In this document: in pieces, positions 47,154 through 53,704 of the stretch
How the letters are laid out: the number at the start of each line of letters is the position of its first letter
Numbering within the stretch: the first letter of the stretch is position 1
From: Armatimonadota bacterium
GTDB lineage: Bacteria; Armatimonadota; Fimbriimonadia; Fimbriimonadales; Fimbriimonadaceae
Length of the DNA stretch: 64,000 bases
Direction of reading: 5' to 3'
Assembly (NCBI GenBank): GCA_029781035.1
Contig: JAKOXK010000070.1
Span: forward strand, 62,001-126,000
The notes under the pieces: generated by a model
The model's database searches: none
Told to the model about the DNA's origin: nothing
What the model saw: only the letters and a program-made list of their open reading frames with translations
Program-made: the position numbers and the translations under genes

Positions 47154-48122
47154 CTACTCTGTGATGTGTGACGCTAATTGGCGTAGGTCCTGCTCGCTCG
47201 GGTCGCCGAGCAAGGCGAACCTCATGCCGTTGTTTTCCCACACGTAGCTGTTGACGTTCCTGCCCTCGATCCTCTTCAGCCGGTCTGCGTTCACAGGACC
47301 TTGGATCATGAAGAACGAAACGCGGGACCGCTGGTTGCCGTAAAGCTGCATCAAGACTTTGACCCCCTTGGGCTCGAGTTTCCGTACGCTGAGCAGCGTC
47401 CAACCTCGTGGCAACTGCATGGGCTTGAACCCCATTTCCGCGCTCAGGCGTTTCAGGTCGTCATAGGGCGTCACGAGACGAGCCCCAGGTTTGTCGATCC
47501 GAAATGTACTGGCGTTGATCGTGGGGTTGAATTGGACCGAGGTGAACTCGATCGAACCCACCAAGTCGCCTCTTGGGTCGAACGTCTGCAACTTGAGCAA
47601 GACGTTGTGTGCGGGGTCGATCCATGCTCGCGACACCACCCCCCCCTTGCTGTTGTCGACTTCTAGTTGACGAGTCGGGAATCCCGCTATCGACCCACCG
47701 TCCGTCTCCTTGACCTCCGACTTGGACTCACCCTTGGCGAAAATCCGGGCAAGACGGAACATGGCTTCTGACTCTCGAGCCGGCATTTCCCGGATCTCGT
47801 TCGTTGCTGGAGACCAGACCAGCCTCTTGTGGTCGTCTTCGACGGAGATCTGCCCCTTGACTTCACTGTCGTGAAGCACTTCAGTCCGGATCCGGACTCC
47901 GTCCCTGACGACGCTTTCCGTCATGAGACGACGGACGCCCCTTTCGATATGCTGCACAACCCTCACGCCCGAGAAGCGAACCTTTTGCTTCTGATCCATC
48001 AGTCGCTGGATCAGCGGATGGATGTCGGCTTGAACCGGTCCACCACCGTGCCTCGTACCGCGCTGGCAGAACGCCACTGCAGGCACGGCGGCAACGAGAA
48101 GGACGATGAACGATCGGTTCAT
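47154..48122 (-). CDS. RseB/MucB-like periplasmic regulator
   Basis: A 322-residue exported protein (signal peptide residues 1-18) with an RseB/MucB-like, LolA-type beta-fold N-terminal half (VRFSGVRVVQHI, RRLMTESVVRDGVRIRTEV, GSIEFTSVQFN) and a C-terminal half (GFKPMQLPRGWTLLSVRKL, YGNQRSRVSFFMIQG). In the SigE system RseB binds RseA and senses lipoprotein or LPS stress. It overlaps the anti-sigma gene by 4 bp, completing a sigma, anti-sigma and RseB cascade. The PBP1A gene follows on the same strand. Confidence 0.8.
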   Translation of the reverse strand: MNRSFIVLLVAAVPAVAFCQRGTRHGGGPVQADIHPLIQRLMDQKQKVRFSGVRVVQHIERGVRRLMTESVVRDGVRIRTEVLHDSEVKGQISVEDDHKRLVWSPATNEIREMPARESEAMFRLARIFAKGESKSEVKETDGGSIAGFPTRQLEVDNSKGGVVSRAWIDPAHNVLLKLQTFDPRGDLVGSIEFTSVQFNPTINASTFRIDKPGARLVTPYDDLKRLSAEMGFKPMQLPRGWTLLSVRKLEPKGVKVLMQLYGNQRSRVSFFMIQGPVNADRLKRIEGRNVNSYVWENNGMRFALLGDPSEQDLRQLASHITE

Positions 48123-48565
48123 AACGAGTCGGGCCTGCTCGAGTTGGGTTCAGGCGTCCACGAAACTCCCATCCCGGTTTCGAGGTCAGCCTCATGGTGC
48201 GCACTGACTAGGGATTCTTCGAGACTCGGTCCCGTCTGCTTGGCCAGCGGAGCCGTGCTGATCGCGGTGCGATCGACTTTCGGAGCGTGCGGCATGAAGA
48301 CGAAGAGGGCGAGCACTGCCACGGCGGTCGCTGCAAATCCGGAGACCCAGAAGGTGACGCTGCGCCTCTTCGGCTTGACCGAGCATTTCAGCAACTCCTC
48401 GTTCAAGGCACTGCGCCAAGACAGGCTGGGCTCGGGATCGTGAAGGGCGCCCACGAGGGGAGCGCTCGTGACCTGAGCCTCGAGAAGTTCGTCGAGTTCA
48501 AGGCTCTCCGACGCCGTCATCGGTGTCTCCCGCACGATCTTCAAGATCAGTTCTTGATCCTTCAT
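48119..48565 (-). CDS. Anti-sigma factor (RseA-like)
   Basis: A 148-residue single-pass membrane protein. The cytosolic N-terminus (MKDQELILKIVRETPMTASE, LELDELLEA) would hold the sigma factor; one membrane helix (about residues 72-91, FWVSGFAATAVAVLALFVF) follows and the rest is periplasmic. It lacks the zinc-binding HxxxCxxC of ZAS anti-sigma factors, so it resembles the RseA type. It overlaps the sigma gene and the RseB-like gene by 4 bp on each side. Confidence 0.8.
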   Translation of the reverse strand: MKDQELILKIVRETPMTASESLELDELLEAQVTSAPLVGALHDPEPSLSWRSALNEELLKCSVKPKRRSVTFWVSGFAATAVAVLALFVFMPHAPKVDRTAISTAPLAKQTGPSLEESLVSAHHEADLETGMGVSWTPEPNSSRPDSL

Positions 48566-49194
48566 ACGCCTCCTCTCGCCGAAGCCAAATAGTCTCCAAC
48601 GTGCTTCTGCATGTGAGCTCGGGCAAGGAACAGCCGGCTCTTGACGGTCCCGACCGGCACGTTGACGGTCGAAGCTATCTCCTCGTACCCCATGTCTTCC
48701 TTATCGTGCAACAGGAGGACTGTCCTGAGTTTTTCCGACATGCTGCCGAGCGCCTCCTCGACCACGACCGAGAGTTCCTCGTTCATGACGAGCATTTCGG
48801 GATCCCAGCGGGTGTCGGCGAACTCCAGCGGCTCTTCGTCGTCGAACGACGAGTCCAAGCTGTTGAAGTCAGGACCACGGTCAACCCTCCGAGACCGGTC
48901 GATGCACAGGTTGTGAGCGATCCGAAACAGCCAGGTCCTCAGTGAACAGCGGCCGTCGAACCGCGCCAGCCCCTGGAAAGCCTTGATGAACACCTCCTGG
49001 GCGACGTCAAGGGCCTCTTCTTCGCTGCGGAGCATCCGGCGGACAAAGCCCAACACCCGGGCCTGATAGGCGTCAACGATCTTGCCGAACGCTTCAGCGT
49101 CCTGACGGCGGCTCTGCGCCACAAGCGCCTGCTCGGTCGCGGCGTCCATGTGTCGTCGGTTAGCCAAAGACTCGACTCCTACGAGGCCGTTCAT
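48562..49194 (-). CDS. ECF RNA polymerase sigma factor (SigE-like)
   Basis: A 210-residue ECF sigma factor. Region 2 reads VDAYQARVLGFVRRMLRSEE, DVAQEVFIKAFQGLARFDG and LRTWLFRIAHNLCIDRSRR; region 4 reads LRTVLLLHDKEDMGYEEIAS and VPVGTVKSRLFLARAHMQ. It directs transcription of envelope-stress genes and is presumably held by the RseA-like protein. Start ATG 49194 or ATG 49149 (MDAATEQALV). The upstream 370 bp hold no gene. Confidence 0.92.
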   Translation of the reverse strand: MNGLVGVESLANRRHMDAATEQALVAQSRRQDAEAFGKIVDAYQARVLGFVRRMLRSEEEALDVAQEVFIKAFQGLARFDGRCSLRTWLFRIAHNLCIDRSRRVDRGPDFNSLDSSFDDEEPLEFADTRWDPEMLVMNEELSVVVEEALGSMSEKLRTVLLLHDKEDMGYEEIASTVNVPVGTVKSRLFLARAHMQKHVGDYLASARGGV

Positions 49195-50118: not shown

Positions 50119-51120
50119 TTACTTCTTGCTCTTGGCGGTGTTGATCTCACCGTAGACTTGGTCTGGGCTGGCGTAGCCGACGTATTCGTGGAAGACGGCG
50201 CCGTCCCCATGCATGAACTTGACCGTGGGCATGGCCGTGATGCCGTACTTAGAAGCGATCTCTTTTTGAGCGTCCACGTCCACCTTGCAGAGGATGAAGT
50301 CCTTCGTCAGTTCTTTGAACTTGGCGGTGTGGAAAGCCTCGGCGTCCATGCGCTTGCAGGGGCCGCACCAGGTCGCCCAGAAATCCACCATGAGGACTTT
50401 GCCCGTGGCCTTGGACAAGGAGAGGGCTTTGTCAAAGTCGGTCATCCACACGCCAGAAGCGACGGCGTTCGCGTCGATCTCCTTGGCACCGGCCGGGGCC
50501 TTGAACGCGAACAGGTCCGGGCTGGCCGAAGTCGAGCATTGGCTGACCAAGAGGACGCTTGTCATCGGATCCTGTCCGGGGGCCGTGATCGTGATCTCCC
50601 CCTGCTTCAACATGTTGTTGCTCACGTCCGTGTAGAGCTTCATGTTCATGGCGCCCTTGGGGTCGAATTGGACGTCGATCGTGTTCAAGGTCATTCCAGC
50701 CCGGTTTTTCGTACCGGTGTCCTTACTGGCCGCGTATGTGTCGACGACGCCTGGGTTGAAGAACGCCCGCCAAACCGCCAGGTCAGAGTCACCGAAAAGC
50801 TCCATCAGGGCTTCGTTTGTCTGAGGCTTCTTGACATACGAATTCTCTGTCTTGTCGTAGACAGTCACGGTGGCCCCGTCGGCGACGGACACGGTCGTCG
50901 GAGTCTCGATCCGAGCCATGTTCGGCTTGCTGAAAGCCACGTTGTACTCAACAGCGGTGCCACCGAGGGGTTGGACGACGTACTTGGCGCTGAACGCCTG
51001 TGCGCTGCCCATGGTCGCGGCGAACGCCTTGAGCTTGGTCGAAGAACCACCCAAGGTGGCGGCCAGACAAATGGCCGCGGTCATTGCGAGCGAACCCGCC
51101 AACATCGTTCTCTTATTCAT
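50119..51120 (-). CDS. LolA-like/thioredoxin fusion protein (Cys form)
   Basis: A 333-residue exported protein. Signal peptide (LAMTAAICLAATLGG), then a LolA/DUF2092-like domain (about residues 25-210; FSAKYVVQPLGG, TLNTIDVQFDPKG) and a C-terminal thioredoxin domain with WCGPC in MVDFWATWCGPCKRMDAEAF and the cis-Pro in GITAMPTVKF. It is a paralogue of the gene at 51316-52314, which has TGA in place of the first active-site Cys. Likely a periplasmic disulfide reductase joined to a lipoprotein-carrier-like domain. ATG 51120 with AGGTGGG is preferred over GTG 51129. Confidence 0.88.
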   Translation of the reverse strand: MNKRTMLAGSLAMTAAICLAATLGGSSTKLKAFAATMGSAQAFSAKYVVQPLGGTAVEYNVAFSKPNMARIETPTTVSVADGATVTVYDKTENSYVKKPQTNEALMELFGDSDLAVWRAFFNPGVVDTYAASKDTGTKNRAGMTLNTIDVQFDPKGAMNMKLYTDVSNNMLKQGEITITAPGQDPMTSVLLVSQCSTSASPDLFAFKAPAGAKEIDANAVASGVWMTDFDKALSLSKATGKVLMVDFWATWCGPCKRMDAEAFHTAKFKELTKDFILCKVDVDAQKEIASKYGITAMPTVKFMHGDGAVFHEYVGYASPDQVYGEINTAKSKK

Positions 51121-51272
51121 TCTTCCCACCTAGGATCCGGAGATTCCCGCACTATTTTAGCCACAATATCCTAAAAGCCAGTCGTTCTGAACGAAAAGGA
51201 CGACAGGGGCCCGCTTTGCCAGGGATCTGCACCGTCGCGCCGATGTTTCGGACCGGGTGGTTCAAGATGGCC

Positions 51273-51315: not shown

Positions 51316-52314
51316 TCAGAGCTTGCTTGCGGCCTTCTTCACTTCGTCAACGAAGGCGTCCAACGGCATGTAACCGGGAATCCGGTCGATTTCGTCGCCC
51401 TTGGAATTGAAGAAGATGATCGTGGGGAAACCAGTGCAACCATACTTTGAGAAGAGGTCTGTCCTGACTTCACCGTTCACACGGCACAGGACGAAGTTCT
51501 TCGCGGCCTCTTTGAATTTCGGGGAGCTGAAAACTTCAGACTCCAATTTGTGACAGTAGGTTCACCAGTCCGCATAGAAGTCAACGATCAGTCCCTTGTT
51601 GAACTGCTTCGCCGCGTTCTGCGCGTCCTCGAAGTTCGTCAGCCACTTTCCTGCGACCAGGTCGGACTGAGACAGCTCCTTGGCGCCGGCAGGAGCCTTG
51701 AACGCAAAGAGGTCAGGGCTGGCGGAAAGGGAGGTGGCAGTAACGAGCAAGACCCTTGTCTGCGGATCCTGGCCCGGAGCCGACATCGTGATCTCACCCT
51801 GCCTCAACATGTTGTCGGTCGAATCCGTGTAGAGCCGAAGAGTCATCTCTCCCTTCGGATCCACCTTGACGTCGATCGTGTTGAGCGTCTTGCCAGCACG
51901 GCTCTTAGTCCCTGCGTCCTTAGAGTACGTGTACTGGCTCGTCACATCTTTGAAGAAGGGCTTCCACACCGCGGTCTCCACATCGGAGAAGAGACCCATC
52001 AGTTCGGCCTCGGTCTGAGGCTTCCTATAGTAGGTCTTCTCCAACTTGTCGTAGATCGTGATGTTCTTTCCGTCGGCGATGGTCAAGCTGGTCGGCGTCT
52101 CAACCGAAGCCTTGTCCGGCTTGGCCAGCGCGACGCTGTACTCCGCCGGTGACCCGCCGAGTGGCTGGACTGTGTATTTGATGCTGATCGCCTGCGCGCC
52201 GCCTAGAGCCGACGCGAACGCCTTCAGCTTGGGCGAGGCGTCGCTGGCCATGGCAGCAGTGCACAGCACCGCCGCCACGGCCAAGACCCCTGTTCCAAAT
52301 GTCTTGATGTTCAT
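51316..52314 (-). CDS. LolA-like/thioredoxin fusion, candidate selenoprotein (Sec at TGA 51562-51564)
   Basis: A 332-residue paralogue of the gene at 50119-51120. The frame runs from ATG 52314 through a signal peptide (GVLAVAAVLCTAAMA), a LolA/DUF2092-like domain (FASALGGAQAISIKYTV, TLNTIDVKVDPKG) and into a thioredoxin domain, then meets TGA where WCxxC should start: DFYADW, TGA, TYCHKLESEVF. The frame continues uninterrupted for 76 codons with the cis-Pro in FPTIIFF and ends at 51316. The TGA replaces the first, nucleophilic Cys; the second Cys is kept. A SECIS-like hairpin starts 17 nt after the TGA (51523-51544). If TGA is read as stop, the protein would lose its catalytic domain. Confidence 0.8.
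51523..51544 (-). promoter_or_regulatory. SECIS-like hairpin
   Basis: On the minus-strand mRNA, GGAG pairs with CUCC and, past a single bulged U, CUGAA pairs with UUCAG around a GUU loop. The loop lies about 27 nt after the UGA. Bacterial SECIS elements known from fdhF have the same order: a lower stem, one bulged U, a short upper stem and a small loop containing GU. The stem lies inside the coding sequence, as required for SelB-dependent recoding in bacteria. Confidence 0.65.
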
Positions 52315-52387: not shown

Positions 52388-53704
52388 ATGCGGGATTGGG
52401 CGCCGGTCGCACTGGTGGCACTGGTCTTCGCGGTTCTTTGCCTCGCCTTCAACGTGTCCACACCCTACAGGAAGCCCGGCTTTCTTCGCCATCAAAAGGC
52501 GGACATGATCCAGGACATTGGGGCACCCGACGAGAGACAGCACGCCAACTACGTCGCGCGCCTCATGAGAGGCGAGGGCTTTCCAGTCCTGAGGCCCGGC
52601 GACCCCGACCTGTACGAGTCGTATCAAGCCCACCAGCCGCCTCTATACTATGTCGCCGCCGCTCTGTGGTGCAGGGTCGCGGGTCAAGATCCGACCGAAC
52701 CGGCCAATGGCCTCTGGCTCCGGCTGCTGAGCACCGTGTTTGGTGTCGCAACCATATTCGGGCTCGCCGCCGGAGCCCAGTGGCTCACCAACGACCGCCG
52801 GTGCGGTTGGGCCGCCGCCACCTTGGGCCTCGTACCGATGCATGTCGCTCTGAGTTCGGCAGCGAGCAACGATCCCCTCCTGATCGCGCTCTGTACTTGG
52901 ACCCTGGCTCTCCTCGCGCTTGGCTCTCGAAGGGGGTGGTCGGTCAAAACAGCGCTCTTGATTGGCCTCCTTTCCGGATTAGCCTTCTTGACCAAGACCA
53001 CCGCCGTGGCGTTGATGCCGTGCGTCGCCGTCGGACTGGGATTTGCCTGGAAGGGGTTGCCGGGCCGAGACAGGTGGCTGGCGACGGCGTGTGCGTTGGC
53101 GCTGCCGGTCCTGATCGCCGCGCCTTGGTGGATCCGGAACCAACAGCTCTACGGTGACCCGTTGGCCATGAAGGCGTTCACGGCCGCATTCACCGGCAGC
53201 CCGCAAGCATCCGTGTTCATCAACGGTCTTGGCGCTGCGGGCTACTGGACATCGATGGTCGCTTGGTGGACGTTTCGAAGTCTGATCGGTGTCTTCGGCT
53301 ACATGGATATATTCCTCTTCGAAGGACCGGGCATGGAAGCCAGCAACCGCATCTACATCGCGCTCGGTCTTCTGTTGTTCGTGCCCATCGCCTGGTCGGT
53401 GGCTTCGCTCGTCGCCAAAGATCCCGAGTCGCGCCCGGCACGAAAGGGAATCGTGGTTGGCGCGCTTTTCGCGGCTTTGGTGTCGCTGTTCTTCTTGCGC
53501 TTCAACATGCAGTACTTTCAAGGTCAGGGTCGCTACCTATATCCAGCGTTGGCGCCTGCGGCGTGGGCCTTCGGCACAGGCTCCGTCCTCATGGCAAAGG
53601 CCAGGGCGTCGTGGGCTTGGGTCGTGCCACTGTCAATCCTCGTGTTACTGGATGTCGTGTCACTCGTCCAACTGACGACTGCATTCACGACCCGTGTCGT
53701 TTGA
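52388..53704 (+). CDS. GT-C fold glycosyltransferase-like membrane protein
   Basis: A 438-residue polytopic protein with about ten hydrophobic helices and an early extracytoplasmic loop containing an acidic pair (GAPDERQHANYVARLM), followed by YQAHQPPLYYVAAALW, the arrangement of the dolichyl-phosphate-mannose/ArnT-like GT-C superfamily (GT39/GT83 or DUF2142-like). It would transfer a sugar from a polyprenyl-phosphate donor to a protein or lipid. A TATAAC element lies near 52356, about 26 nt before the ATG at 52388. It is divergent from the selenoprotein candidate. Confidence 0.8.
   Translation: MRDWAPVALVALVFAVLCLAFNVSTPYRKPGFLRHQKADMIQDIGAPDERQHANYVARLMRGEGFPVLRPGDPDLYESYQAHQPPLYYVAAALWCRVAGQDPTEPANGLWLRLLSTVFGVATIFGLAAGAQWLTNDRRCGWAAATLGLVPMHVALSSAASNDPLLIALCTWTLALLALGSRRGWSVKTALLIGLLSGLAFLTKTTAVALMPCVAVGLGFAWKGLPGRDRWLATACALALPVLIAAPWWIRNQQLYGDPLAMKAFTAAFTGSPQASVFINGLGAAGYWTSMVAWWTFRSLIGVFGYMDIFLFEGPGMEASNRIYIALGLLLFVPIAWSVASLVAKDPESRPARKGIVVGALFAALVSLFFLRFNMQYFQGQGRYLYPALAPAAWAFGTGSVLMAKARASWAWVVPLSILVLLDVVSLVQLTTAFTTRVV

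Follow-up and report, generated by a model that had tools for sequence, protein, structure and literature searches.

A LolA-thioredoxin fusion protein with a candidate selenocysteine at its active site in the order Fimbriimonadales

Selenocysteine (Sec) is decoded in bacteria by SelB with the Sec-tRNA and a hairpin downstream of the UGA codon, and the chemistry of thioredoxin-fold oxidoreductases is established. A 2026 inventory of selenoproteins (PMC13188914) includes a Sec thioredoxin (PF00085, UxxC) and a thiol:disulfide interchange selenoprotein (PF13098, UxxC), and the UxxC thioredoxin is already a known selenoprotein type. The protein described here likewise has a thioredoxin fold and the putative Sec as the first residue of UxxC, but it adds a LolA-fold domain and a signal-like sequence, and a LolA fusion is absent from that inventory. 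The fold is shared with the γ domain of DsbD (29–30% identity to 1vrs and 2fwe), which is the top NCBIfam match of the protein. In contrast to DsbD, there is no transmembrane domain, the partner domain is LolA-like, and the first Cys is replaced by the predicted Sec; the DsbD model NF001419 scores 68.2 bits over residues 190–328 only, below its cut-off of 330 bits, a threshold for which the transmembrane domain is required. The fold of residues 26–217 is common to the LolA lipoprotein carrier, RseB, and LprG, but here it is joined to a thioredoxin, and the sequence match is weak. Despite the common fold, assignment as a LolA orthologue was rejected, as the LolA equivalog TIGR00547 gave 17.7 bits against a cut-off of 112. 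The Trx7/PDZ selenoprotein (NF041199) is also a thioredoxin-like selenoprotein with a second domain, but it combines CxxU with PDZ rather than UxxC with LolA, and it scores 29.5 bits against a cut-off of 300. No NCBIfam selenoprotein model reached its cut-off with the protein. Neither PMC13188914 nor PMC9312934 contains the terms LolA, DUF2092, or Armatimonad-, and a literature search for selenoproteins with Armatimonadetes or Fimbriimonas returned nothing relevant.

The window, the whole stretch of 64,000 nucleotides that was analysed, comes from a genome of 3.42 Mb in 98 contigs. On its minus strand, a gene of 332 codons plus stop (51316..52314, with the ATG at 52314) contains a single internal in-frame TGA, codon 251 (51562..51564). 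In the thioredoxin site W-C-x-x-C, this codon takes exactly the place of the first Cys, and it would be read as Sec in W-U-T-Y-C. The context of this codon is DFYADW-TGA-TYCHKL, and 81 open codons follow up to the true stop codon, also TGA (51316..51318, minus strand). Termination at the internal TGA would give 250 residues, and the read-through product has 332. Most of the thioredoxin match falls 3' of the TGA (PF13098, E = 8e-16, residues 236–322; PF13899, E = 2e-15; PF00085, E = 1e-13), and the second Cys, Cys-254, and the cis-proline, Pro-297, are kept there. The frame coordinates, the internal TGA, and the in-frame continuation given in the initial annotation were borne out when 52314–51316 was read again, as were the downstream cis-proline, the intact final stop, and a neighbouring paralogue with WCGPC at the aligned site (51129–50119). 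What had been called a thioredoxin fusion is one indeed, and the fused N-terminal domain has a LolA fold.

On inspection of the sequence, the first residues of the predicted protein, up to about residue 24, resemble a signal peptide, and the protein is probably exported. This stretch is followed by the LolA-fold domain (residues 28–222; 51649..52233, minus strand; DUF2092, E = 2e-5) and by the thioredoxin or DsbD-γ-like domain (residues 223–332; 51319..51648, minus strand). An AlphaFold2 model calculated with 43 homologues has a pLDDT of 92.9. Residues 26–217 of the model match LolA (Protein Data Bank code 4mxt) with a Z score of 17.0 and an rmsd of 2.8 over 176 aligned residues (Foldseek was also run), and residues 220–332 match thioredoxins and DsbD-γ (2lst, Z 16.6; 1vrs_D, Z 15.8, 29% identity). 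Trp-250, Cys/Sec-251, Cys-254, and the cis-proline Pro-297 are invariant in the alignment when U is read as C. The thioredoxin fold, the [C/U]xxC motif, and the cis-proline place the protein in the thioredoxin superfamily.

Homologues were searched for in 113 genomes of the order and were detected in 112 of them. The codon at the first CxxC position is TGA in 19 rows of the resulting table, which represent 18 distinct homologues (the present gene and 17 others) from 14 genomes and two families; G077 and G081 were counted as one sequence because they are identical over 3963 bases. These two genomes (loci L031 and L032) are labelled as different genera, and the identity might reflect a shared contig, contamination, or recent transfer. 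In all 31 other homologues of the table, the aligned codon is TGC or TGT. The TGA rows include the site variants WUTYC, WUGFC, WUGYC, WUSWC, WUGWC, and similar ones. Thirteen of them (12 distinct) have the full LolA-thioredoxin architecture, and the remainder are more distant thioredoxin relatives. The thioredoxin domain is intact in every one of the 18 distinct homologues, and no frameshift was found 3' of this codon. A pseudogene, in which a nonsense mutation removed the thioredoxin domain and left the downstream part as a relic, would agree with the standard code, under which the frame does stop at the TGA, and with the occurrence of LolA-only relatives, which match residues 10–221 only (G037:C1). 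The recurrence of TGA at the same codon with the domain preserved, together with the complete Sec machinery of the genome, makes this highly improbable. If annotated with the standard code, the TGA forms of the LolA-thioredoxin genes would be cut short at the catalytic residue.

The genome encodes selA (contig C82, E = 1.2e-114), selB (contig C10, E = 1.2e-92, above cut-off), tRNA-Sec (contig C54, 74.7 bits; tRNA-SeC with anticodon tca, i.e. UCA, according to ARAGORN), and selD (contig C64, E = 2.4e-100), so the cell has the full set for the use of UGA as Sec. The active site of selD itself contains an in-frame TGA (CAG-U-ASK), and this gene belongs to an accepted selenoprotein family. Both selA and selD are above cut-off in 14 of the 14 genomes with a TGA form, and selA in 60 of 113 overall; the co-occurrence of the TGA form with selA has a hypergeometric P of 6e-5, with relatedness ignored. 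The presence of a tRNA-Sec with anticodon UCA also argues against a genome-wide reading of UGA as tryptophan (code 4). That code would leave the frame open, but both the Sec gene and its neighbour at 52388–53704 terminate in TGA, and homologues carry Cys, not Trp, at codon 251, which leaves code 4 with practically no credence. Codon, evolutionary exchange with Cys, machinery, and domains are directly established for this gene, and we infer on strong comparative evidence that Sec is inserted at UGA 251. We are highly confident that the gene at 51316..52314, with its two domains and apparent export signal, encodes a selenoprotein.

A candidate SECIS hairpin, GGAG-U-CUGAA-GUU-UUCAG-CUCC, is situated at 51523..51544 on the minus strand, which is nucleotides +18 to +39 after the TGA, with the loop GUU at +28. 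It consists of 22 nucleotides with 9 bp and one bulged U at a spacing of 27 nucleotides, and it has a value of −9.8 kcal/mol; compared with dinucleotide shuffles, its z is −1.7. The hairpin agrees with all four constraints of a published bacterial model (PMC13188914), which barely separates Sec from Cys homologues in this family. Fixed-register pair counts used a register that was picked after the TGA sequences had been seen, and we therefore rely on a register-free comparison. For hairpins with G in the loop, the stem scores higher after TGA than after TGC or TGT (P = 0.011), and a stricter comparison that requires GU in the loop gives P = 0.054. Against synonymous-codon shuffles the candidate is not stronger (z −0.74, p 0.22). 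The same test showed no signal for selD, the accepted selenoprotein family (mean z −0.37), and it was discarded as powerless here because this positive control was also null. The selD genes of the order have a hairpin about as far from their TGA, with a loop that is mostly GUU, GUC, or GUG. The candidate hairpin is plausible, and we take it as support, not as proof. The reading of the TGA at the first Cys as a candidate Sec, made in the initial annotation, is upheld by the sel genes, by the TGA and TGC/TGT codons of the homologues, and by this hairpin with SECIS geometry; two of the refuting conditions proposed there (a genome lacking selA, selB, selC, and selD, and orthologues with frameshifts or lost conservation after the TGA) were examined, and both results favour it.

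The SelD genes of the order (L057–L086) have two consecutive hairpins after the UGA, and these hairpins persist while their stem sequences vary from genome to genome. They are good material for a SECIS model of this lineage.

In the mechanism we propose, SelB with Sec-tRNA(UCA) would decode UGA 251 as Sec, aided by the hairpin just 3' of it, and translation would end at the second UGA. After export, the LolA-fold domain would probably bind a hydrophobic or lipoprotein client via a hydrophobic surface. Sec-251 would attack and Cys-254 resolve, such that the DsbD-γ-like thioredoxin domain exchanges thiols and disulfides on the bound client. The Sec protein would then probably be re-reduced by a membrane reductase of the DsbD/CcdA type. 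Contig C7 encodes a DsbD-type protein that has a thioredoxin domain of its own, and a second DsbD_TM match is on contig C85, so that an electron donor is available in the periplasm. The client and the electron donor are proposed tentatively, from the fold and the signal-like sequence, and we hold this part of the mechanism to be somewhat less than an even chance; beyond thiol-disulfide exchange, we infer the function rather than observe it. UGA read-through is rarely complete, which, like the LolA-only relatives, counts for a regulated dual product, where termination at UGA would mostly yield a LolA-like protein, and the full protein would arise by Sec read-through when selenium can be had. 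The stop, however, lies 28 residues inside the thioredoxin domain and off the domain border, and the short product would thus carry an unfolded tail; we consider such regulation unlikely.

The conserved divergent neighbour of the gene is a DUF2142/PMT-like membrane protein (52388..53704, plus strand). The LolA-thioredoxin gene adjoins this divergent gene in 25 of 30 loci, among which the TGA forms include L018, L025, L026, L036, and L038, and most of the others are Cys forms. Because TGA and Cys forms adjoin the same neighbour, they are positional orthologues, and by this comparison of sequences Sec and Cys appear to have been exchanged repeatedly at one chromosomal position within the LolA-thioredoxin family. 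On the other side lies a tandem Cys paralogue with WCGPC (50119..51129, minus strand), which has 51% identity to the Sec copy and would be a selenium-free isoform. The repeated exchange and the presence of both forms side by side in one genome provide a natural test of the benefit of Sec in an extracytoplasmic thioredoxin. Selenoprotein architectures would gain an apparently exported LolA-thioredoxin fusion, in an order for which the literature searched held no selenoprotein report that we found.

The two domains give different trees. The N-terminal domain tree places the Sec copy as sister of the neighbouring Cys copy (support 100/98), and grouping of this part with the Sec form of G037 is rejected by the AU test (p 0.002). 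In the tree of the thioredoxin domain, the Sec copy falls outside the Cys clade of the genus, its grouping with G037 Sec is weak (81/86), and simple tandem duplication is not rejected for this part (AU test, p 0.25–0.32). In the three other genomes of the genus, a Cys copy alone was seen, beside the DUF2142 gene. The conflict between the trees suggests a mosaic or gene-conversion origin, and a tandem duplication with mosaic exchange would fit both of them; plain duplication followed by a Cys-to-Sec change would also be compatible with the AU test. More speculatively, the LolA half of the Sec gene may have been homogenised with the WCGPC copy while its thioredoxin half came from an older Sec lineage, and the pair may serve as two isoforms, one dependent on selenium and one independent of it, of a redox chaperone that handles lipids or lipoproteins, a scenario we regard as doubtful.

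A scan of the contigs of the genome for relatives returned distant thioredoxins only. Elsewhere, G063, G001, G002, G004, and G006 (L091–L096) contain more thioredoxin-domain selenoprotein candidates with WUGWC, WUGYC, WUPSC, or WUGSC, and their alignment to the query is confined to the thioredoxin part. Outside the order, only the thioredoxin part is covered among the matches listed, and some of these also have TGA. The homologues in G120, G183, G179, and G150 contain one internal TGA each and may be further Sec forms in the phylum. Near the LolA-thioredoxin pair, at 47157–49194 of the window, are an ECF sigma factor, a probable anti-sigma factor, and a MucB/RseB-like protein, which has a LolA-type fold.
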